Positions 42,161 to 54,436 of a stretch of 62,063 nucleotides of DNA are shown one piece after another (positions within the stretch are counted from its first letter, which is position 1; each line of letters opens with the position of its first letter). The notes beneath the pieces are model-generated. The model was not told where the DNA came from and did not search any database. It saw only the letters and a program-made list of their open reading frames with translations. A program made the position numbers and the translations under genes. Source of the DNA: Nitrospira sp. (GTDB lineage: Bacteria > Nitrospirota > Nitrospiria > Nitrospirales > UBA8639). The stretch lies in assembly GCA_028819435.1 (NCBI GenBank), contig JAPPLK010000049.1:1-62063 (forward strand), in the 5' to 3' direction.

Positions 42161-42189
42161 TTGACATTTAAATTCTACTCCGATATAAG
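42161..42189 (+). promoter_or_regulatory. Strong sigma-70 promoter upstream of the urea operon leader
   Basis: TTGACA (42161-42166), a 17-base spacer and TATAAG (42184-42189). Transcription would begin near 42196, about 285 bases before the fmdC start. Confidence 0.8.
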
Positions 42190-42195
42190 CCCTTA

Positions 42196-42310
42196 GACAT
42201 AAGATGGCACGGTCGGGAAACGAGGAAGTTTTCCTTACCGAACCTTAAGAACAAGCAAGGACATCGACGTCCTTTTGGTTTGTGGTTCAGACCAGAAGGG
42301 CGTTTTTTTT
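42196..42310 (+). ncRNA. Structured leader or small RNA with intrinsic terminator
   Basis: Three competing helices are visible. CGGT (42210-42213) pairs with ACCG (42237-42240) over an inner GGAAA/TTTCC. AAGGAC (42257-42262) can pair with GTCCTT (42269-42274). The same GTCCTT is part of the 5' arm of a 12-bp terminator stem: CGTCCTTTTGGT (42268-42279) with ACCAGAAGGGCG (42291-42302), followed by eight T. The upstream hairpin and terminator are mutually exclusive, as in attenuators. I could not match it to a known riboswitch class (guanidine-I or -II signatures are not present). It may also be a free small RNA of about 115 bases. Confidence 0.6.
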
Positions 42311-42480
42311 GTCCATTTCATTGATGACGGCAAAAGAAAGTGACAAGCGGATGAACATGACGTTTCGTCCCGCTGAAGGAAACAACGGTGTTTCCCGCAT
42401 TGCCGAAACAGGAAAATTTTGGGGTGCCTGCATAAGACAATCTTGCAAAATCGACTCTGACACGAAAAGGACATATATCC

Positions 42481-43695
42481 ATGAATATGCTCAAACAAAG
42501 CACGTTCACTATCGTTTTCTTCGCGATACTCTTGATTGCATTGCCTGCATTCGCCGGTCCGAAACTCGAATTCGGCGATGACAAATGGCTCAGTATTGGT
42601 GCCGGAGCACGGGTGCATTTCTTTACGCAGGAGGATGGTGCCGCGGACGGTGAGAATTGGAGCAAGCATTTCGGGTTGGAGAATATGCGGCTCTACGTCA
42701 ACGGACAATTCCACAAGTACCTGAAAATCGAATTCAACACGGACTGTACGAATTGCCTCGGCGACAACAGCAGTGGCACGATGATCGTCCTGGACGCCAT
42801 CGGCAAATTCGAGTTCAACCAGTACGTCAACATCTGGGGCGGACGGCAATTGGTCCCATCGGATCGCGCTGAACTCGACGGGCCGTATTTCCAAAATACC
42901 TTTGACTTCAATAAAACACCTTTTTACCCGTCGGATTTCGGCAATTTTGTGGCTGGCCGGTTCGGCCGTGACGACGGGATAAACCTCTGGGGAGCTTTTT
43001 TTGAGGACAAGAGGCTGACGTACGTCGTGGGCGTGTTTGACGGAGTCGATCATTCGAATATGCCTGGGCGTCCGAATACGGGTGACAACCTGCTTTGGGC
43101 GGGCCGTTTCAGCTACAACTTCTGGGACGTGGAAAAAAACCCGGGCTATTACACCAGCAGCACCTATTATGGTAAAGGAGGAGACATTCTAACCTTGGCT
43201 TTCGCCATACAGCACCACGAAGACGGAGCCGGCACAGCCGCCAATCAATCGGATTTCACCGGCTACAGTACCGATCTCCTGATGGAAAAAGTCCTGCCGA
43301 ACAAGGGCGTCCTGACCTTTGAAGGAGAATATAAAGCGTTTGATACCGGAATGTCTCAAACTACTTTCGATGAAGCTTTGGGTGAAGGTGGCCCCGGCTG
43401 CTTTTGCCTGTTCGACGGAGATTCCTGGACGGCAACGGCGTTGTATCTCTTTCCCGAGAAATTGGGAATCGGGCAATTGCAGCCTTATGTCCGATATACG
43501 GCAAACAATCCTGACTTCAGCACCAGCCGGAGTGAAATCGAATTCGGAACGAATTACATCATCGACGGGCACAACGCCAAAATCGCACTGTTCTATCAGT
43601 ATGGCGATATTGCCACGAAAGGAAGAAATTGGACGCCTGGTGTCACCGGTGACGACGTGAGTGTCATCAAGCTGGCCCTGCAGTGGCAGATCTAG
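42481..43695 (+). CDS. fmdC: Outer-membrane porin, FmdC-like (amide/urea uptake)
   Basis: 404 residues. A signal peptide (MNMLKQSTFTIVFFAILLIA, cleavage near FAG) precedes a beta-barrel with alternating aromatic and polar residues, LRLYVNGQFHKYLKIEFNTD-type strands and a terminal hydrophobic strand ending in LALQWQI. The layout is that of OprO/P-like porins. The name is given from context: it is first in front of urtABCDE and ureABCFGD, where FmdC-type porins for short amides and urea occur. The ribosome site AAAAGGAC is close to ATG. Transcription probably passes the leader terminator at 42310. Confidence 0.8.
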   Translation: MNMLKQSTFTIVFFAILLIALPAFAGPKLEFGDDKWLSIGAGARVHFFTQEDGAADGENWSKHFGLENMRLYVNGQFHKYLKIEFNTDCTNCLGDNSSGTMIVLDAIGKFEFNQYVNIWGGRQLVPSDRAELDGPYFQNTFDFNKTPFYPSDFGNFVAGRFGRDDGINLWGAFFEDKRLTYVVGVFDGVDHSNMPGRPNTGDNLLWAGRFSYNFWDVEKNPGYYTSSTYYGKGGDILTLAFAIQHHEDGAGTAANQSDFTGYSTDLLMEKVLPNKGVLTFEGEYKAFDTGMSQTTFDEALGEGGPGCFCLFDGDSWTATALYLFPEKLGIGQLQPYVRYTANNPDFSTSRSEIEFGTNYIIDGHNAKIALFYQYGDIATKGRNWTPGVTGDDVSVIKLALQWQI

Positions 43696-43762: not shown

Positions 43763-45136
43763 ATGAATTCACCAAAAGACCTTATCCCCGAAACCATGAA
43801 CAACAAGGCGGAGAATTCGCTCGACCTGACACCTGAGAAAAGCCGGCGCCAATTTTTTACGGACGCCGGGAAGACCGCGGCAGGATTCGGCATCGCGGCG
43901 CTTCTGGGCAACCTGGGAAATTATGCGCTGTCCTATGCCGCGGGCAAAGAACCCATTAAGATCGGCATCCTCCACTCGTTGAGCGGCACGATGGCCATCA
44001 GCGAAGTTTCATTGCGAGACGTCGTGCTGATGGCGGTCGAGGAAATCAACGCCGCGGGCGGCGTCCTCGGCAGGATGATCGAACCCGTTGTGGTCGATCC
44101 CGCGTCGAATTGGGATCTGTTTGCGGAAAAAGCCAAGCAACTCCTCCTGGTCGACAAGGTCTCCGTCGTGTTCGGGTGCTGGACGTCCGTGAGTCGCAAA
44201 TCCGTGCTCCCCGTGTTTGAAAGCAACAACGGGTTACTCTTTTATCCCGTGCAATACGAAGGAGAAGAATGTTCGCGCAACGTGTTCTACACGGGAGCCG
44301 CGGTCAACCAACAAGCCGTTCCCGCCGTCGAGTACCTGATGAGTGAAGAAGGCGGCGGATACAAGAAGTTCTATCTCCTGGGAACGGATTACGTGTATCC
44401 CAGGACAACGAATAAAATCTTACGGGCAATGTTGCTCGCCAAAGGCGTCCCCGCTTCCGGTATTGGCGAAGAATACACCCCGTTCCACCACCAGGACTAC
44501 CAAACCATTGTCAGTAAAATCCGGCAATTTTCCCGTCGCGGAGACGCGGCCGTGATCAGTACTATCAACGGTGACAGCAACGTGCCGTTTTACAAGGAGT
44601 TCGCCAATCAGGGGCTCCGGTCCGAAGACGTGCCCATCATGGCATTCAGTGTGGCCGAGGACGAACTCCGCAGCATGGACACAACCGCGTTAGTCGGGCA
44701 TTTGACGGCCTGGAATTACTTCCAAAGCATCGATTCTGCCGGAAATAAAAAATTCGTGAGCGACTTTAAATCCTATTGCAAGAAAAACGGTCTGCCCGGC
44801 GGAGCGCAACGGGTCACGGATGATCCGATCGAAGCCGCCTATTTTGGGGTACACGTCTGGAAACAAGCCGTGGAAAAAGCCGGTGGCACGGACGTAGACG
44901 CCGTGCGCAAAGCCGTCTACGGATTGGAGTTCGATGCACCCGGCGGCAAGAAGAAGATGGATGCGGTCAATCATCACACTCACAAGCCCGTGCTCATCGG
45001 GGAAATTCGCAAAAACGGACAATTTGCGATCATTTCTCATACCGACCTGGTCAGGCCGGAGCCATGGAGCGAATACACCAATCCGGAAAAAGGCTGTGAC
45101 TGGGTCAAGCACAAAGGCACCTACAAGAAAACCTAA
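43763..45136 (+). CDS. urtA: Urea ABC transporter substrate-binding protein UrtA
   Basis: 457 residues. A twin-arginine type N-terminus (SRRQFF, Arg28-Arg29) followed by a hydrophobic stretch suggests Tat export. The mature protein matches UrtA: KIGILHSLSGTMAISEVSL, VEEINAAGGVLGRMIEPVVV, VFGCWTSVSRKSVLPVFE, LLFYPVQYEGEECS and DDPIEAAYFGVHVWKQA. It captures urea in the periplasm. Ribosome site GAGGAG. First of five urt genes. Confidence 0.96.
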   Translation: MNSPKDLIPETMNNKAENSLDLTPEKSRRQFFTDAGKTAAGFGIAALLGNLGNYALSYAAGKEPIKIGILHSLSGTMAISEVSLRDVVLMAVEEINAAGGVLGRMIEPVVVDPASNWDLFAEKAKQLLLVDKVSVVFGCWTSVSRKSVLPVFESNNGLLFYPVQYEGEECSRNVFYTGAAVNQQAVPAVEYLMSEEGGGYKKFYLLGTDYVYPRTTNKILRAMLLAKGVPASGIGEEYTPFHHQDYQTIVSKIRQFSRRGDAAVISTINGDSNVPFYKEFANQGLRSEDVPIMAFSVAEDELRSMDTTALVGHLTAWNYFQSIDSAGNKKFVSDFKSYCKKNGLPGGAQRVTDDPIEAAYFGVHVWKQAVEKAGGTDVDAVRKAVYGLEFDAPGGKKKMDAVNHHTHKPVLIGEIRKNGQFAIISHTDLVRPEPWSEYTNPEKGCDWVKHKGTYKKT

Positions 45137-45218
45137 GCCCGTTGCGGGCTCGGGAGCAACTTCGATCCTGAGCCCGCGCTCTTGCTCACTGAACCCCGAA
45201 CGTCAGATTAACTCATTC

Positions 45219-46772
45219 ATGAGACGCAGCATCAGACGATCGCCCATCCCTATTTTGTCCGCGTGGCTTCTCCTCTTTTTAGGGGCCCCGTTGAGCCTGG
45301 CAACGGCACAGGAAGAACCGACGTCGCCCCCCGCATTCATGACGACGCAAGAAGCCATGACCGCACTGCACGAAAGCCCGTGGCCGGACAAAAAACTGGC
45401 AGCCGGCTATCTCTTGAAAAATGGAGATCCCGCCCTGCTCCCCCAATTTGAAGAACTTCGCTCAAACACAAACCGGCGCGTTCGCAGGTTGATCAAACCC
45501 GTCATCAACCTGCTCAAAAACAAAGCGGGCCTCGCCAGCCCGGACAAGGGAACCCGTCGCGCCGCGGCCAGGGATCTCGGGGCACGCGGCACGCCGGAGG
45601 CGTTGCCGGTCCTCAAGAAAGCCTTGTCCAATGAAAAAGAGCATTGGGTTCGATACGACTTGGAAGAGGCCATACAATTACTCAACCTGGAGAATGGCGA
45701 CCCACAAGTGAAATTTATGGCCATTCAGCAACTGGGCGATATGCGCAGTGCCGCGGCCCTCCCGATTTTGCAGGATTTGGCAAAGCAGCAGGCAGGCAAC
45801 CTCGAACAGCAAACGCTCAAGGATGAGGCGGAAAAGGCCAGCCGCCTGATACAGAAATGGCAAGACGTGACCCGCGGCATCGAAATGCTGCTACAAGGCC
45901 TGAGCCTGGGGTCCATCCTCCTCCTCATGGCCTTGGGGCTGGCCATTGTGTTCGGTCTCATGGGCGTCATTAATATGGCGCATGGGGAAATGATGATGAT
46001 CGGAGCCTATGCCACGTTCGTCGTTCAGGAAACGTTCAGAATGTACCTGGGCGAACACCTCTTTGATTATTATTTCTTTTTTGCCCTCCCCTGCGCCTTT
46101 TTCGTCGCGGCGTTCATCGGCTGGATACTTGAGGGCACGCTCATCCGTTTCCTCTATGGAAGGCCTCTCGAAACGTTGCTTGCGACTTGGGGCGTCGGGC
46201 TGGTCTTGATCCAAACCGCCCGCCTCATCTTCGGCGACCTGACGGCAGTCCAGGCCCCAAGCTGGCTCAGGGGCGGCGCGCAAGTCGTGGTTGGCGTGCA
46301 ACTGCCTTACAACCGGCTCTTCATTATCCTGTTGGCCCTGTTCAGCGTCGCCGGCATCTACCTGCTGCTGTTTCGGACAGGCGTCGGACTGCGGGTCCGC
46401 GCAGTCCTGCAGAATCGCGATATGAGCGCCTGTTTGGGCATCCCAACAAGAAAATTGGACGCCTATACGTTTGCCTTCGGCTCAGGCTTGGCAGGGTTGG
46501 CCGGCAGCGCCCTCACCTTGGTCGGGAACGTTGATCCTGAACTCGGGCGGAATTACATCGTCGATTCATTCATGGTCGTCGTCGCCGGCGGAGTCGGAAA
46601 ACTCGCCGGAACGATTACAGCCGCGTTCGGCATCGGCACGCTGAATAAACTGTTGGAACCCGGTTTCGGCGCCGTGTACGGCAAAGTGATCATTCTCGTA
46701 CTCATCATTCTGTTCCTCCAGGTGAGACCATCCGGACTCTTTGCATTGAAGGGACGACACCTTGACTCCTGA
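45219..46772 (+). CDS. urtB: Urea ABC transporter permease UrtB with N-terminal HEAT-like domain
   Basis: 517 residues from ATG 45219; the upstream frame is a shadow of urtA. A signal peptide (about 1-30) is followed by a periplasmic alpha-helical HEAT-like region (about 40-215; repeats such as DKGTRRAAARDLGARGTPEA). The permease part (about 225-517) belongs to the LivH family and has about eight helices, with MGVINMAHGEMMMIGAY and the C-terminal GVGKLAGTITAA. HEAT-bearing N-termini are known for UrtB. It overlaps urtC by 11 bases. Confidence 0.95.
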   Translation: MRRSIRRSPIPILSAWLLLFLGAPLSLATAQEEPTSPPAFMTTQEAMTALHESPWPDKKLAAGYLLKNGDPALLPQFEELRSNTNRRVRRLIKPVINLLKNKAGLASPDKGTRRAAARDLGARGTPEALPVLKKALSNEKEHWVRYDLEEAIQLLNLENGDPQVKFMAIQQLGDMRSAAALPILQDLAKQQAGNLEQQTLKDEAEKASRLIQKWQDVTRGIEMLLQGLSLGSILLLMALGLAIVFGLMGVINMAHGEMMMIGAYATFVVQETFRMYLGEHLFDYYFFFALPCAFFVAAFIGWILEGTLIRFLYGRPLETLLATWGVGLVLIQTARLIFGDLTAVQAPSWLRGGAQVVVGVQLPYNRLFIILLALFSVAGIYLLLFRTGVGLRVRAVLQNRDMSACLGIPTRKLDAYTFAFGSGLAGLAGSALTLVGNVDPELGRNYIVDSFMVVVAGGVGKLAGTITAAFGIGTLNKLLEPGFGAVYGKVIILVLIILFLQVRPSGLFALKGRHLDS

Positions 46773-47910
46773 ACGCTCCATCACGTCACGCCTCGCAGCC
46801 GCGGCCTCGAACGTCGGAGCAGGTCCCGCGTTCTGGATCATAGGAGCGCTCCTGTTTGCCGGAGTGCCCTTGCTCAATTTGCTGCCCGATGATTCGTTTT
46901 TTCACGTTTCCGACTTTACCTTGAACCTGTTGGGAAAATTTTTTGCGTTTGCCATTTTGGCATTGGGGATCGACCTGATTTGGGGCTATACCGGCGTCTT
47001 GAGTCTGGGGCACGGCGTGTTTTTCGGCCTGGGAGCCTATGCCATGGGGATGCACCTGATGCTGGGGATTGGAACGGAAGGCGTCTATGGCAACGCCCTT
47101 CCCGACTTCATGGTGTGGAACCAGGTCGAAGAGCTTCCCTGGTTTTGGAAACCATTTTACAGCCTGCCATTTTCATTAGCCGCCATTGTTCTGGTGCCGA
47201 TGGCCGCCGCGGCAATGTTCGGGTACTTCGTGTTCCGCAGCCGGATTCGCGGCGTCTACTTTTCCATTATCACGCAAGCGCTCGCGCTCGTCGCGTGGCT
47301 GGTCTTCAATCGCAATGAAACCAACCTGGGCGGAACGAACGGGTTGACCAACTTCAAACACATTCAGGGATTTTCCTTGAACGACCCCTCTACCCAGCTC
47401 GTCATGTACATGGTCACTATCCTGTTCCTGGGCCTGGCCTACGTGCTCTGCAGGTGGATTACCCAATCCCGGGCGGGACGTGTGCTCATCGCCATTCGCG
47501 ATTGCGAACAGCGCGTATTTTTTTCCGGGTACTCGCCGGCCAATTACAAATTGTTCGTCTTTGTAATCTCGGCCGGATTGGCCGGTCTCGCCGGCGCACT
47601 CTACGTACCACAGGTCGGGATCATCACGCCTAACCAAATAGGCGTCCTGCCTTCGATCGAGATGGTGATCTGGGTGGCCGTGGGTGGACGGGGAACCCTA
47701 TCCGGTGCCATTATCGGAGCTGCTGGCGTCAACTTCATGCGCAGTACGTTGACCAATCATTTCCCCGAACTCTGGCCATTTTTTCTTGGCGGCCTATTCA
47801 TTGCCGTGGTCATGTTTTTTCCGAAAGGAATCGTGGGATTACTCCGAAAGATGTCAGTGATGCTGCCTTCCAGAAAATCCAAAGTCGAAAACGCGGCGAC
47901 AACCGACTAA
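46762..47910 (+). CDS. urtC: Urea ABC transporter permease UrtC
   Basis: 382 residues, TTG start inside urtB. A LivM-family membrane protein with about ten helices, IDLIWGYTGVLSLGHGVFFG, a large periplasmic loop around residue 100-135, NETNLGGTNGLTNF and VGGRGTLSGAIIGA. It forms the channel with UrtB. The TTG start and overlap suggest coupling. Confidence 0.95.
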   Translation: MTPERSITSRLAAAASNVGAGPAFWIIGALLFAGVPLLNLLPDDSFFHVSDFTLNLLGKFFAFAILALGIDLIWGYTGVLSLGHGVFFGLGAYAMGMHLMLGIGTEGVYGNALPDFMVWNQVEELPWFWKPFYSLPFSLAAIVLVPMAAAAMFGYFVFRSRIRGVYFSIITQALALVAWLVFNRNETNLGGTNGLTNFKHIQGFSLNDPSTQLVMYMVTILFLGLAYVLCRWITQSRAGRVLIAIRDCEQRVFFSGYSPANYKLFVFVISAGLAGLAGALYVPQVGIITPNQIGVLPSIEMVIWVAVGGRGTLSGAIIGAAGVNFMRSTLTNHFPELWPFFLGGLFIAVVMFFPKGIVGLLRKMSVMLPSRKSKVENAATTD

Positions 47911-47926
47911 TTGTTTAAGTCATGCC

Positions 47927-48757
47927 ATGAATGAAAGTATTTCGATCCCCAGAGAGATAGCTGGCGAACGAAAAGTCATCGGCTCCCGCCACCAACGTTC
48001 GATCATTTATCTCGACAACGTGACAGTTGATTTCGACGGGTTTAAAGCCTTGAATCAACTAAACCTGATCGTGGACTACCACGAGCTTCGCGTGGTGATC
48101 GGCCCCAACGGCGCCGGCAAAAGCACGTTATTGGACGTGATCTCCGGGAAAGTTCAACCGGCGTCCGGACGTGTGGTCTTCGGTCAGGCCACGGACTTGA
48201 TCGGTCTCAGGGAAAATCAAATCGCGGCGTTGGGCATCGGCAGGAAATTCCAAACCCCCTCGGTTTATACCACCCTCCCCGTGTGGGACAACCTCGACCT
48301 TTCGCTCCGTCGAAAAAACAAAGGGTTCATTGCCACCTTGTTATCAAAGCTGAATTCGGAAGAATCGGATAAGATTGCCCTGACCTTGGAGACCATCGGG
48401 TTAACGAAGAAAGCCCGCGTGCTTGCCGGCCAACTGTCACACGGCGAAAAGCAATGGCTGGAAATCGGCATGGTCCTCCTCCAAGACCCCGAACTCCTCC
48501 TCATTGATGAACCCGTTGCAGGTATGACGGAACAGGAAACGGAAAAAACCGGCGAACTCCTGAAATCCCTCACGGACAAGCATTCCCTTATCGTGATCGA
48601 GCATGATATGGAGTTTGTCAGACAAATTGCGAAAATGGTGACGGTCCTGCATGAAGGCACCGTGTTGTGCGAAGGATTCGTGGAGCACGTCCAAAACGAT
48701 CCTCGCGTGATCGAAATTTATCTCGGACGACAAAAAGAAGCCAATGCTCCGGTGTGA
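47927..48757 (+). CDS. urtD: Urea ABC transporter ATPase UrtD
   Basis: 276 residues, with about 20 more at the N-terminus than usual. Walker A is GPNGAGKST, signature LSHGEKQWLEIGM, Walker B LLLIDEPVAGMT, and the switch His lies in VIEHDMEFV. It powers urea import with UrtE. It overlaps urtE by 14 bases. Confidence 0.96.
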   Translation: MNESISIPREIAGERKVIGSRHQRSIIYLDNVTVDFDGFKALNQLNLIVDYHELRVVIGPNGAGKSTLLDVISGKVQPASGRVVFGQATDLIGLRENQIAALGIGRKFQTPSVYTTLPVWDNLDLSLRRKNKGFIATLLSKLNSEESDKIALTLETIGLTKKARVLAGQLSHGEKQWLEIGMVLLQDPELLLIDEPVAGMTEQETEKTGELLKSLTDKHSLIVIEHDMEFVRQIAKMVTVLHEGTVLCEGFVEHVQNDPRVIEIYLGRQKEANAPV

Positions 48758-49454
48758 CGCACTCAACGTTTTCTATGGGGAAAGTCATATCCTGCGTGAT
48801 GTTTCCATCGACGTGCCCGCGGGTCAGGTCACTTGTCTCATGGGACGAAACGGCGTGGGCAAAACCACGCTCTTGAAAACCATCATGGGTTTACTCAAAC
48901 CCCAGACCGGACACGTGTACCTGCACGACGAAGAGGTCACCGAACAATCTCCGGATCAACGGGTACGCCGGGGCATTGCCTACGTGCCCCAGGGCCGTGA
49001 ACTGTTTCCGCATTTAACGGTCGAAGAAAATCTCCGGTTGGGGTTTGAAGCCAGACAAGGCCCCCAGGATTCCCGAACCGCAGAGTCATCCTATGATGAA
49101 GTCTATACGTTGTTCCCGGCTCTGCCGGCACTGCTCGGACGTCCGGGAGGCGTCCTCAGCGGCGGGCAACAGCAACAGGTCGCCATTGCCCGGGCCTTGC
49201 TCACGCAACCCAAATTGCTGCTGTTGGATGAACCCACCGAAGGGATCCAACCGTCGATCGTGATCGACATCGAGCGCGTCATCGAGGGCTTTAAAAATCA
49301 ACGCCGGTTCGCTATCTTGTTGGTGGAACAATATTTTGAATTTGCAGCCCGACTGGCCGATACGGTTGTGCTCATGGCCAAAGGCGCCATCGTGGCATCG
49401 GGCCCCGTCTCCGAACTAACGGAAGAAATCGTCCAACAACACTTGGTGGTATAA
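48744..49454 (+). CDS. urtE: Urea ABC transporter ATPase UrtE
   Basis: 236 residues. Walker A GRNGVGKTT, signature LSGGQQQQVAIARALL, Walker B LLLLDEPTEGIQPS and VEQYFEFA at the switch. This LivF-type subunit pairs with UrtD. ureA begins only three bases after it, which joins uptake and hydrolysis in one transcript. Confidence 0.96.
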   Translation: MLRCDALNVFYGESHILRDVSIDVPAGQVTCLMGRNGVGKTTLLKTIMGLLKPQTGHVYLHDEEVTEQSPDQRVRRGIAYVPQGRELFPHLTVEENLRLGFEARQGPQDSRTAESSYDEVYTLFPALPALLGRPGGVLSGGQQQQVAIARALLTQPKLLLLDEPTEGIQPSIVIDIERVIEGFKNQRRFAILLVEQYFEFAARLADTVVLMAKGAIVASGPVSELTEEIVQQHLVV

Positions 49455-49457
49455 ACG

Positions 49458-49760
49458 ATGCACCTAAGCCCGAGAGAACAAGAAAAACTCCTGATTTACG
49501 TTGCAGGACAACTTGCGAAGGACCGTAAGGCCCGTGGACTCAAGCTCAACCACCCCGAGGCAGTGGCGTACATTACTGCTGCCATATTGGAAGGCATTCG
49601 GGATGGCCGCTCCGTCTCGGACCTGATGAGCTATGGAGCCACCCTGTTGACCAGGGAAGACGTCATGGACGGCGTACCGGAAATGTTGGCGGATATTCAA
49701 GTGGAAGGGACGTTTCCCGATGGAACGAAGCTGGTCACCGTGCATAATCCCATCCGATAA
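49458..49760 (+). CDS. ureA: Urease gamma subunit
   Basis: 100 residues, full family length. [40 protein letters not shown] and [18 protein letters not shown] are signature segments. It packs with UreB and UreC in the cytoplasmic trimer of heterotrimers. Confidence 0.98.
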
Positions 49761-49782
49761 GGCAAAGGCTATATATTCACTA

Positions 49783-49841
49783 TCTACCTCCCCTCACCCC
49801 TCCTTACCCTTCGACTCCGCTCAGGGCAGGCAAAGGAGGGG
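49783..49841. repeat. Repeat A half-unit split at its apex by module H
   Basis: TCTACCTCCCCTCACCCC and TCCTTAC (49801-49807) form the left part and AAAGGAGGGG (49832-49841) the right. In every other copy TTAC and AAAG are adjacent. Here CCTTCGACTCCGCTCAGGGC then AGGC (24 bases, 49808-49831) sits between them. Confidence 0.85.
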
Positions 49842-49900
49842 AAGTGGAGCACAGCAGTAAGCGGTGGAAATTGGCAGTGAATACCGATGGAGCTTTGATA

Positions 49901-50404
49901 ATGGTAAAAAAACAGCCCGCAAAAAAATCTCCTTCTCCAAAGAAACCGCAACAAGCCCAGGTTGCGGCAAAGAACACAACAGCTACCAGACCGAAGGCCG
50001 TTCGTGAAACTGAACGCGCTCCTCTCATTCCCGGTGAGATTGTATTGGGTACGGGTGACATTGTCGCGTTGGCCGATCGTCCGACTCTGGCCCTGACGGT
50101 GACGAACCACGGCGACCGGCCCATCCAGGTGGGCTCACATTGCCACTTCTTCGAAGTGAATCGTGCCTTGCGGTTTTCCCGGGAACAAGCCTTCGGCTTT
50201 CGTCTGAACGTTCCGGCAGGCACAGCAGTACGATTCGAACCGGGAGAAGAGAAACGGGTCACGCTCGTTGCCTTTGGAGGAAACCGGATTGCCCATGGCA
50301 TCAACAGCTTGACCAATGGCACACTCGATAATGCCCGGGTCAAAGCCCAAGCGCTTGCCCGCGCCGTCAAATTGGGATTTTGCAAAGAGGGGAACGCCCA
50401 ATGA
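49901..50404 (+). CDS. ureB: Urease beta subunit with basic N-terminal extension
   Basis: 167 residues from ATG 49901; the family usually has 100-130. The core begins at about residue 42 with [11 protein letters not shown] and contains [36 protein letters not shown] and VAFGGN. Before it lies a Lys/Pro/Ala-rich tail ([20 protein letters not shown]) of low complexity. The gap to ureA is filled by a repeat, and it overlaps ureC by four bases (ATGA). Confidence 0.96.
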
Positions 50405-52128
50405 AGATACCGCGCCGTCAATACGTGGATTTATTCGGTCCTACCGTTGGCGACCGCATCCGCTTGGCTGATACCGAGCTACTCGTGGAAGTCGAACAGG
50501 ACCTGACGACCCCCGGAGAAGAGGCCAAGTTCGGCGGAGGGAAAGTCATTCGGGACGGGATGGGACAATCTCCGACTGCTACGCGAGCCGGCGGCTCTTT
50601 GGACGTGGTCGTGACCAATGCGGTCATTCTTGACTATTGGGGCATCGTCAAAGCGGATATCGGCATCCGTGACGGACGTATCGTCGCCATCGGAAAGGCC
50701 GGCAACCCCGACCTCATGGCCGGTGTTTCGCCGGGCATGACGATCGGTCCGGGCACGGAAGTCATCGCAGGGGAAGGCAAAATCGTGACGTCCGGCGGCA
50801 TTGAAAGCCACGTGCATTTCATTTGCCCGCAACTGATTCAGGAAGCGTTGTCCTCGGGAATGACGACCCTGTTGGGCGGTGGAACGGGACCGGCAACCGG
50901 CACGAACGCCACGACCTGCACTCCCGGTTCCTGGAACATCGGTCGCATGCTGGAGAGTGCAGACGCATTCCCGGTCAACCTCGGTTTTCTCGGAAAAGGC
51001 AACGCCTCCCTCCCCGAGGCGTTGGTCGAACAAGTCAAGGCAGGCGCCATCGGCCTGAAATTACACGAAGATTGGGGGACGACGCCGGCCGCCATCTCAA
51101 CGTGCCTCGATGTTGCGGATGACTATGACGTGCAAGTTGCCATTCATACGGATACGTTGAACGAGGCGGGCTTTGTAGACGACAGCATTCGCGCGTTTGC
51201 AGGACGAACCATTCATACCTTTCACACCGAAGGAGCAGGAGGCGGCCATGCCCCGGACATTATCCGCGTCTGCGGGGAATCAAACGTCCTGCCGTCCTCC
51301 ACCAATCCAAGCATGCCGTTTACGGTCAATACCATCGACGAACACCTCGATATGCTCATGGTCTGTCATCACTTGAGCCCTCGTGTCCCTGAAGATATTG
51401 CGTTTGCCGAATCGCGCATTCGCGGAGAAACCATTGCAGCGGAAGACATCCTTCACGACATGGGCGCCATCAGCATCATGTCATCGGACTCGCAAGCCAT
51501 GGGCCGAATCGGTGAAGTGATTACAAGAACGTGGCAGACCGCCCACAAAATGAAAGTCCAACGAGGACACCTGAACCCGTCGGACGTTCGGCCGGTAAAG
51601 AAACAACATGACAACTTCCGGGCCAAACGCTACGTCGCCAAATACACCATTAATCCGGCCATCACGCATGGGATCTCCTCGGAAGTGGGATCGGTGGAAG
51701 TCGGGAAATTGGCCGACCTCGTGATCTGGAACCCGGCCTTCTTCGGAGTCAAGCCGGATCTCGTCATCAAGGGAGGTTTTTTGGTGGAAGCAGCCATGGG
51801 AGACCCCAATGCCTCCATTCCCACGCCGCAGCCGGTGGTGAGTCGCCCCATGTTCGGGGCTTGGGGAAAGGCTCTCTTCAGCACAAGCGTGACGTTTCTG
51901 TCACAGGCGGGAGTCGAGCACCGGATTCCCGAACAACTCGGTTTGCAAAAGCGGATCGTAGCCGTTCGGAATTGCCGCCGTATCGGCAAACGTGACCTGA
52001 AACTGAATGACACCACGCCCAACGTCGAAGTCGATGCCGAAACCTACGTGGTGAAAGCCGATGGGCAACGTTTAACCTGCGAACCCATGGCGGTCCTGCC
52101 GATGGCACAGCGATACTTTTTATTCTAG
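50401..52128 (+). CDS. ureC: Urease alpha subunit (catalytic)
   Basis: 575 residues. It hydrolyses urea to ammonia and carbamate at a dinickel site. Nickel ligands and catalytic residues are in place: His137 and His139 in ESHVHF, carbamylated Lys220 in GLKLHED, His249, His275 in [15 protein letters not shown], Cys322-His323 in MVCHHLSP, and Asp in SSDSQAMGR. The start ATG overlaps the ureB stop. Confidence 0.99.
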
Positions 52129-52164
52129 TGTTCCGTTCATGACCCCAGGTTGACGAACATCTCA

Positions 52165-52851
52165 ATGGACACTCGCCTGCTTCTTCAAGGGTTCCGCTAT
52201 CTCGATACGTTTTTCCCGTCCGGCGGATTCGCCTTTTCCTCGGGTTTGGAAGCCGCCGTCCAGGAAGGCCACGTCCGAACCATCAAAGACTTGGATCAAT
52301 ACGTCGTGGATTTCTTCCGGTGGGGATTGGGGACATGCGAAGCCGTCACTCTGGCCCAAGCCTACCAGGCTTCCTGCAAGAGAGATCTCGATGGTGTCAT
52401 CCAAACCGATCACGCCCTTGAGGCGATGAAATTATGCCAAGAAACACGGGCAGCCAGTCGTCAAATGGGGCGCAGCCTGTTACACCATGCCATTCCACCG
52501 CACAACAACCAGGGAATCATTGAAGAGTTCTCTGCGGCGGTATATTCAGGACGTTCCCCTGGTCACTTGGCCGTGACTTTCGGAGTCGTGTTCCAAGCAA
52601 TCGGGTGGGATCAACCACAGACGATTGCCGGTTTTCTGTATCAAGCCGGCGTCGGGTTCGTATCGGCTTCATACAAATTACTGCCTATTGGCCAACGGGA
52701 AGGCCAGCGCTTGTTGGAGTCGTGGGTCCCCGTGATCGAAGAACTCAGCCGGACCATTGATGCCCGGATGATCCTGATGTCCTGGACGCCGGTCCAGGAC
52801 ATCTACTCCATGCGACATTCACAATTAACCTCCAGGCTCTTCAGGTCATAA
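52165..52851 (+). CDS. ureF: Urease accessory protein UreF
   Basis: 228 residues from ATG 52165; a TTG 15 bases earlier is the alternative. Helical protein with [34 protein letters not shown] and the C-terminal [13 protein letters not shown]. It bridges UreD and UreG on apo-urease. No ureE precedes it, unlike many operons. Confidence 0.95.
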
Positions 52852-52855
52852 CGCC

Positions 52856-53518
52856 ATGCATCTCATTGAGAATGTACCGGGCGGCGGAACGCCCATCACA
52901 CGATCCGGGAACGTCACCGTCATTGGCATCGGGGGGCCCGTTGGTTCAGGTAAAACGGCCCTGGTCGAATCCTTATCTCGTACGCTGCAATCCCGCATGC
53001 AAATTGCGGCTGTCACAAATGATATTTTCACAAAAGAGGACGCCGAGTTTCTGACCAGGCGGGGCGTGCTCCCAGAAGAACGAATTCTCGGTGTTGAAAC
53101 CGGAGGCTGCCCCCATACGGCCGTCCGCGAAGATACCTCCCACAATCAAAGCGCCATCGAGGAACTGATCAACCGTATCTCCGGCTTGGAACTGATCTTT
53201 CTGGAAAGCGGGGGCGACAACCTGGCGGCTACCTTTAGCCCAGACTTGGTGGATGACGTCATCTATGTTATCGACGTGGCCGCGGGAGATAAAATTCCTC
53301 GAAAAGGTGGTCCGGCTATCACACGGTCAGGACTGCTCGTCATTAATAAAATCGACTTGGCTCCGCACGTTGGCGCCGACCTTGCCGTGATGGATCGGGA
53401 CAGTCGTCTCATGCGCGGGGAACGACCGTTCGTTTTCACCAACCTGCACTCGGGAGAAGGACTCGACCAGGTGGCAGAATGGGTGGAACGCCACGTCCGT
53501 TCACGCACCTCAAGCTGA
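52856..53518 (+). CDS. ureG: Urease accessory GTPase UreG
   Basis: 220 residues. It uses GTP to deliver nickel to urease. G1 loop [15 protein letters not shown], nickel-binding Cys85-Pro-His87 in [22 protein letters not shown], and the guanine-specificity [14 protein letters not shown]. It starts four bases after ureF. Confidence 0.98.
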
Positions 53519-53524
53519 CGACTC

Positions 53525-54436
53525 ATGCGCCGGCAACACGGTCTTCAGGCTGAAACGCCTCCCCTGCCGTTTGAGTCACGTCCATCTTCCGATACGGAAC
53601 GTTCTCATTTTCAAAAAGGTGAGCTGTTCCTCGAATGCGCAAAACGGAACGGTAAAACCGTTTTCACCCGGTCACGCTGTTCGTACCCCTGGTATGTTTT
53701 CCAGCCCTTGTATCTTGACCACACGGGTTGCGCCACGACGTTCCTCACAAATCCGTCCGGAGGACTGGCCGGAGGAGATACATGTTCTCTTCTGGCAACG
53801 TTAGGAAAAGACTCACACGTGCTCTTTACGACCCCCTCGGCGACCAAGGTCTATCGAACACTCGAGAAACCCGCTGTCCAGTCAATCGACCTGAACGTTG
53901 GTGCCAACGCCAGATGTGAATGGATGCCCGAATCCACCATTCCATTCGCCGGCTCATCGTTTGAACAAACGGTCACCGTGCGACTCGAAACAGGTGCGTC
54001 TCTTATTCTCTGGGATGCCCTGGCAGCCGGGCGGATCGTCCGGGGAGAACGGTGGACGTTTTCCTCTTATGCGAACCGGATCAGGATCCTGCTTGCGGAC
54101 GGGAGATCCCTCGAAGAGCGGTATCGCCTCTCACCGGACCACGACAATCTTTGTCTCCCATTCAACCAGGCATGGAATTACACGGGGTCGCTCTTCATCG
54201 TGAACGACCAAGTGCCAGGGTCAACATGGGAACGAATCAAGCAAGATATGACGACAGCGATCGAGAACCATACCGGCAAGGTTTTGGGAGGCATATCAGA
54301 ACCATCCGTCCCAGGTTTGGTCGTGAAATTGCTGACGCGCTCAGCACCCGACCTCAATACCGCGCTGGAACAACTGTGGCGAGTCGCGCGCCTGCATTTA
54401 TGGAATACGCCGATCCCTTCCCTGCGACGTTACTAG
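53525..54436 (+). CDS. ureD: Urease accessory protein UreD (UreH)
   Basis: 303 residues. Scaffold that binds the urease apoprotein and channels nickel from UreFG. Recognisable segments are TNPSGGLAGGDTCSLLATLG, FTTPSATKVYRTLEKPA, EWMPESTIPFAGSSFEQTV and LILWDALAAGRIVRGE. It ends the operon. The order ABC-F-G-D is complete apart from ureE. Confidence 0.95.
   Translation: MRRQHGLQAETPPLPFESRPSSDTERSHFQKGELFLECAKRNGKTVFTRSRCSYPWYVFQPLYLDHTGCATTFLTNPSGGLAGGDTCSLLATLGKDSHVLFTTPSATKVYRTLEKPAVQSIDLNVGANARCEWMPESTIPFAGSSFEQTVTVRLETGASLILWDALAAGRIVRGERWTFSSYANRIRILLADGRSLEERYRLSPDHDNLCLPFNQAWNYTGSLFIVNDQVPGSTWERIKQDMTTAIENHTGKVLGGISEPSVPGLVVKLLTRSAPDLNTALEQLWRVARLHLWNTPIPSLRRY

Follow-up and report, generated by a model that had tools for sequence, protein, structure and literature searches.

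The RNA targets of ANTAR regulators, as described for EutV and common to NasR and AmiR, consist of two hairpins with six-base loops, in which the loop carries A at position 1 (A1) and G at position 4 (G4), and the second hairpin excludes a terminator (PMC3369931). In eutP, changes at loop position 1 or 4, or in the closing pairs, reduced or abolished the induction, and with EutV a linker of 14 nt already impaired it (PMC3369931). A selection with NasR yielded a closing C:G pair together with A1 and G4 (PMC7496416). This is an established class, and the ANTAR targets listed in 2012 already include urea and ammonium transporters, PII and glutamine synthetase (PMC3369931). Nitrospira is not named in the main text of that paper, and a literature search of open-access papers by title found no link between ANTAR and Nitrospira. 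Here we analysed a stretch of 62,063 nucleotides from Nitrospira sp. (the window), in which the leader of the urt genes is very probably an ANTAR-type transcription attenuator that releases the porin-urt-ure operon.

Results

The urt leader and its operon

The window belongs to an assembly of 2.6 Mb in 114 contigs, of which the closest named relatives are assemblies of the Nitrospirales, which are major nitrifiers. The features of the locus are as follows.

42161..42189, + strand: promoter, −35 TTGACA (42161-42166), 17-nt spacer and −10 TATAAG (42184-42189), read from the sequence
42215..42234, + strand: P1 hairpin, GGGAAAC-GAGGAA-GTTTTCC, six-base loop 42222-42227 with G1 and G4; compensatory changes in homologues
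42257..42274, + strand: P2 hairpin (putative antiterminator), AAGGAC-ATCGAC-GTCCTT, loop 42263-42268 with A1 and G4; paired in 26/26 homologues
42266..42310, + strand: intrinsic terminator, 17 pairs including G-U (42266-42304) and T8 (42303-42310)
42378..42395, + strand: P3 hexaloop hairpin, GGAAAC-AACGGT-GTTTCC, with A1, G4 and closing AC/GU
42481..43695, + strand: outer-membrane porin, gene 1 of the operon (called fmdC in the earlier note), weak ExtI match
43763..54436, + strand: urea ABC transporter and urease genes, five products checked, the rest named by position only
43763-45136, + strand: UrtA, checked
within the ORF 44934-46772, + strand: UrtB, checked
46762-47910, + strand: UrtC, checked
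49458-49760, + strand: UreA, checked
50380-52128, + strand: UreC, checked

The earlier note, made from the sequence alone, had described a near-consensus promoter, and this was borne out (TTGACA-17-TATAAG). The −10 element matches the consensus at five of the six positions and lacks the final T, for which reason it escaped the promoter scan. Nine genomes of the genus, the divergent G008 included, have kept this promoter, and transcription would start at about 42196. The porin scored 92.6 bits against the ExtI model NF040900, which is below the cut-off of 150, and showed no Pfam match. Within the urease genes, an Rfam match to 5_ureB_sRNA was found at 50547-50845 on the minus strand, antisense to the urease alpha-subunit gene (93 bits; gathering score 40). 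It may merely reflect the conserved urease coding sequence.

Predicted folding of the leader

The core of P1 carries a basal extension that reaches about 42210-42240, in agreement with the additional 5' hairpin noticed before. P2 is a 6-bp stem formed by AAGGAC (42257-42262) and GTCCTT (42269-42274), and its 3' arm sits inside the 5' arm of the terminator. The terminator had been described with a 12-bp stem and eight T; the T-run was confirmed, and the stem actually comprises 17 pairs including G-U. The leader folded at −49 kcal/mol, as compared with −30.8 ± 3.4 for its shuffles (z −5.3; none of 200 shuffles was as low). When the folding was predicted stepwise, P2 was present at transcript ends from 42275 to 42295 and the terminator took over at 42299-42303. 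The predicted folds support the claim that P2 and the terminator, which share GTCCTT, are mutually exclusive. A strict scan for P1, P2 and an overlapping terminator found one site in 62 kb on both strands, and the combination was absent from all 60 shuffled versions of the window (dinucleotides preserved).

Conservation and covariation in homologous leaders

At the DNA level, seven further genomes of the genus proved to carry the leader, with 81-91% identity. The P2-terminator part was also found in two genomes of another family, where it precedes genes that resemble outer-membrane proteins and have no Pfam match. In other Nitrospirota the element recurs 5' of urtA, mostly about 1.6 kb ahead, which is the expected place of the porin gene. 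In the alignment of 26 homologous leaders, all sequences have G4 in the P1 and P2 loops, and both stems are closed throughout by A-U and C-G (AC/GU). Position 1 of the P2 loop is A in all 26, and P1 has A there in 17 leaders and G in nine (the window and eight others). Outside the genus, P1 position 1 is A in all sequences but one; within it P1 begins with G, except in the divergent G008, which has A.

The outer five pairs of P1 vary on both sides in 35 cells versus 13 ± 2.9 in the shuffled control, which leaves the kinship among the sequences in place, and slid registers gave lower counts. P2 hardly varies and so has no covariation support of its own; this is as expected, because the strand must pair in two ways. 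The linker between P1 and P2, counted by stem ends, is 22 nt in the window and 16-27 nt in the homologues, with lengths up to 35. By inspection, the extra linker sequence of G008 can fold into its own hairpin. The 5-12 nt of the E. faecalis eut leaders is thus exceeded here, although this range comes from measurements on EutV alone and might not hold for the whole class, and the basal extension of P1 shortens the effective distance between P1 and P2.

The exclusive pairing of P2 and the terminator would by itself permit a metabolite riboswitch (for urea, guanidine, ammonium, glutamine or Ni2+), with P1 as the aptamer and P2 plus the terminator as the expression platform. However, Rfam searches at the gathering score and at a loose threshold gave only chance-level matches in the leader, and the small P1 hairpin changes its stem freely through compensation, with only loop position 4 and the closing pairs constant, which suits recognition by a protein rather than an aptamer. 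The occurrence of the element, moreover, follows that of the ANTAR protein, as described below, and we regard a riboswitch as very improbable. From the alternatives raised previously, a riboswitch or a protein-controlled attenuator, the latter is the one that stands.

The ANTAR protein and further sites in the genome

The genome encodes a single ANTAR protein, at L124:33-1331 on the minus strand; it has 432 aa, and two GAF domains precede the C-terminal ANTAR domain. The RNA-contact residues reported for EutV (PMC8934654) were compared, using a numbering of the EutV chain that is offset by two from the paper: R142, K143, K149, E160, M172, N173 and R175 are kept, and Y164, K147, R168 and R177 are replaced by F, R, Q and S, respectively. 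For the first GAF domain, the best relatives among solved structures include the GAF domains of PtsP-type phosphotransferases. Domains of this type have nitrogen-linked ligands, and one may speculate that the GAF domains here sense the nitrogen status, for example through glutamine or 2-oxoglutarate.

As proposed in the earlier note, the same structure was sought upstream of other nitrogen genes, and a covariance model built on P1 plus the terminator did find it, together with the P1 covariation given above. In the genus, the model matched the urt leader, a porin-glnB-amt-glnA site and a nadE-glnD site. In the genome of the window, the former site lies on contig C18 before a BBP2 porin, glnB, amt and glnA. 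The latter lies on contig C67 directly 3' of the ANTAR gene and 5' of nadE and glnD (gene families checked on the G011 copy); the contig edge runs into the apparent 3' end of the ANTAR gene. The nadE sites have no recognisable P1. An additional site, seen in relatives, stands before a sigma-54 activator and a formate/nitrite transporter.

Among 60 genomes, the one analysed here included, the model matched 43 of the 51 that bear an ANTAR protein and none of the nine that lack it (Fisher p 1.6e-6, a statistic that ignores kinship). In the genus g12, three sites were found in the lone ANTAR-bearing genome and none in the five ANTAR-less genomes. All eight ANTAR-bearing genomes without a match belong to one family, f2. 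At four of the seven ANTAR loci examined in this family, a GGAC-GATGMC-GTCC hairpin is followed by a T-run, and three of these four hairpins are found a short way 3' of the ANTAR gene and are preceded by a hexaloop hairpin. The paired hairpins (L097, L098 and L118) have G at positions 1 and 4 of both loops and AC/GU closings. The covariance model probably misses a variant element in this family.

The 70 model hits all have G4 in P2, whose loop has seven bases in 13 of them. G4 is also present in P1 of all 61 hits in which P1 was recognised by the closing-pair rule, and nine have no P1 by the strict rule. A match at G011:C1:1318089 (E 0.03), which resembles a plain terminator, was not counted. 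These data bear on a third explanation, namely that the terminator is partial and constitutive, or that the attenuator depends on a different protein or on the translation of a leader peptide. It is true that P1 of the window breaks the A1 rule, and that ANTAR binding to the leader is what we infer. Nevertheless, specific loop and closing-pair rules hold across the 70 hits, the combination was absent from the shuffles, the element co-occurs with ANTAR, and no leader peptide is evident between the start site and the terminator. There is consequently little chance that this explanation is right, and control by the ANTAR protein is the reading that we prefer.

Several variations of the element were noticed in relatives. 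At the sites before the sigma-54 activator, the P2 loop has seven bases, AATGAAC or AATGAGC, where it was checked in the genus (L139-L147 and L137). Tandem elements were found about 110 nt apart (G020:C60:122512-122722 and G038:C5:1046371-1046575) and about 1.1-1.2 kb apart (L060:282-1584 and L038:3308-4521). In other Nitrospira an element stands before a large ORF (L039:2419-2519 and L065:1053-1163), and the ORF behind the L039 element is a Cache-PAS histidine kinase. The sigma-54 activator behind the element is NifA/NtrC-like (L158, L161 and L171), and antitermination may feed a sigma-54 cascade in those relatives.

A third hairpin beyond the terminator

On the + strand of the window, the strict hairpin rule is satisfied by P2 and P3 alone, and the single strict hit on the minus strand is the reverse complement of P3. 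The position of P3 is kept in six other genomes of the genus. Four amt leaders of relatives (L134, L135, L153 and L154) have a hairpin 45-52 nt past the element with another stem and the same rule; the window genome's own amt leader has no counterpart of P3. Such a hairpin was found within the next 220 nt at 11 of the 70 elements, where the background rate predicts about 1.8, but the 11 cases span only two gene families, so that the independent evidence for P3 is small. A coding role for P3, in a small ORF from 42351, was not favoured, as by inspection the changes in the conserved stretch do not cluster at third codon positions. A general DNA operator was not favoured either, as GGAAAC-N6-GTTTCC hardly occurs at other places in 14 genomes of the genus. 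It is conceivable, as a tentative idea, that the leader has three ANTAR hairpins, and that P3 offers a second ANTAR contact on read-through transcripts only, which would act on elongation, translation or stability.

The strong promoter and terminator and the short transcript between them would also suit a separate small RNA with a fixed end at 42310, porin-urt-ure then being read from a promoter of its own, as the earlier note had allowed. On the other hand, a simple scan of the + strand from the terminator to the porin start found no promoter-like site, the same element stands before several nitrogen operons, and the stretch from the terminator to the start codon contains a conserved hairpin. 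An independent small RNA is accordingly unlikely, with only a slim probability left to it.

Discussion

On its sequence, the leader fits the ANTAR dual-hexaloop antiterminator of the EutV/NasR/AmiR type in most of the defining features: two tandem six-base-loop hairpins, G4 in both loops, a P2 that overlaps the intrinsic terminator, and an ANTAR protein encoded in the genome. This supersedes the statement that no known class could be fitted. The most likely mechanism, by analogy with EutV and NasR, is default termination with ANTAR-dependent antitermination. The polymerase starting at about 42196 would halt at the intrinsic terminator (42266-42310) by default. The active GAF-GAF-ANTAR protein would grip the nascent RNA at the two six-base loops (P1 and P2) in a loop-dependent manner and hold the AAGGAC/GTCCTT pairing of P2, which would block the terminator, and the polymerase would continue into porin-urt-ure. 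The direction of control in this scheme is taken from those relatives. The same protein would also release porin-glnB-amt-glnA and nadE-glnD, and these genes would form one nitrogen-assimilation regulon. One protein and one RNA element would thus likely control urea uptake, ammonium uptake, glutamine synthetase and PII modification, which makes a testable regulon. The range of ANTAR targets would be widened by loops with G1, long linkers and a third hairpin, and this matters for searches that rest on A1/G4 and short linkers.

As compared with the EutV leaders of E. faecalis eutP/G/S/A (PMC3369931, PMC8934654), the locus likewise has two G4 hexaloop hairpins, a P2 over an intrinsic terminator and an ANTAR regulator. 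The closing A-U and C-G pairs are those of eutP P1 by the positions of the paper (PMC3369931). However, the P1 loop starts with G in the window, the linker is longer than in eut, a hairpin past the terminator is present here, unlike in the eut leaders, and the regulator is a GAF-GAF-ANTAR protein whereas EutV is a phosphorylated response regulator. The NasR/nasF leader of Klebsiella (PMC7496416) also combines a one-component ANTAR regulator, tandem hexaloop hairpins and nitrogen genes, but NasR senses nitrate/nitrite by a NIT domain, while the regulator here has two GAF domains. The sites behind the ANTAR gene and before nadE-glnD do not appear in the main text of PMC3369931. The ANTAR nitrogen regulon predicted for Desulfotomaculum acetoxidans (PMC3369931) resembles the one proposed here in that several elements per genome stand before nitrogen genes.
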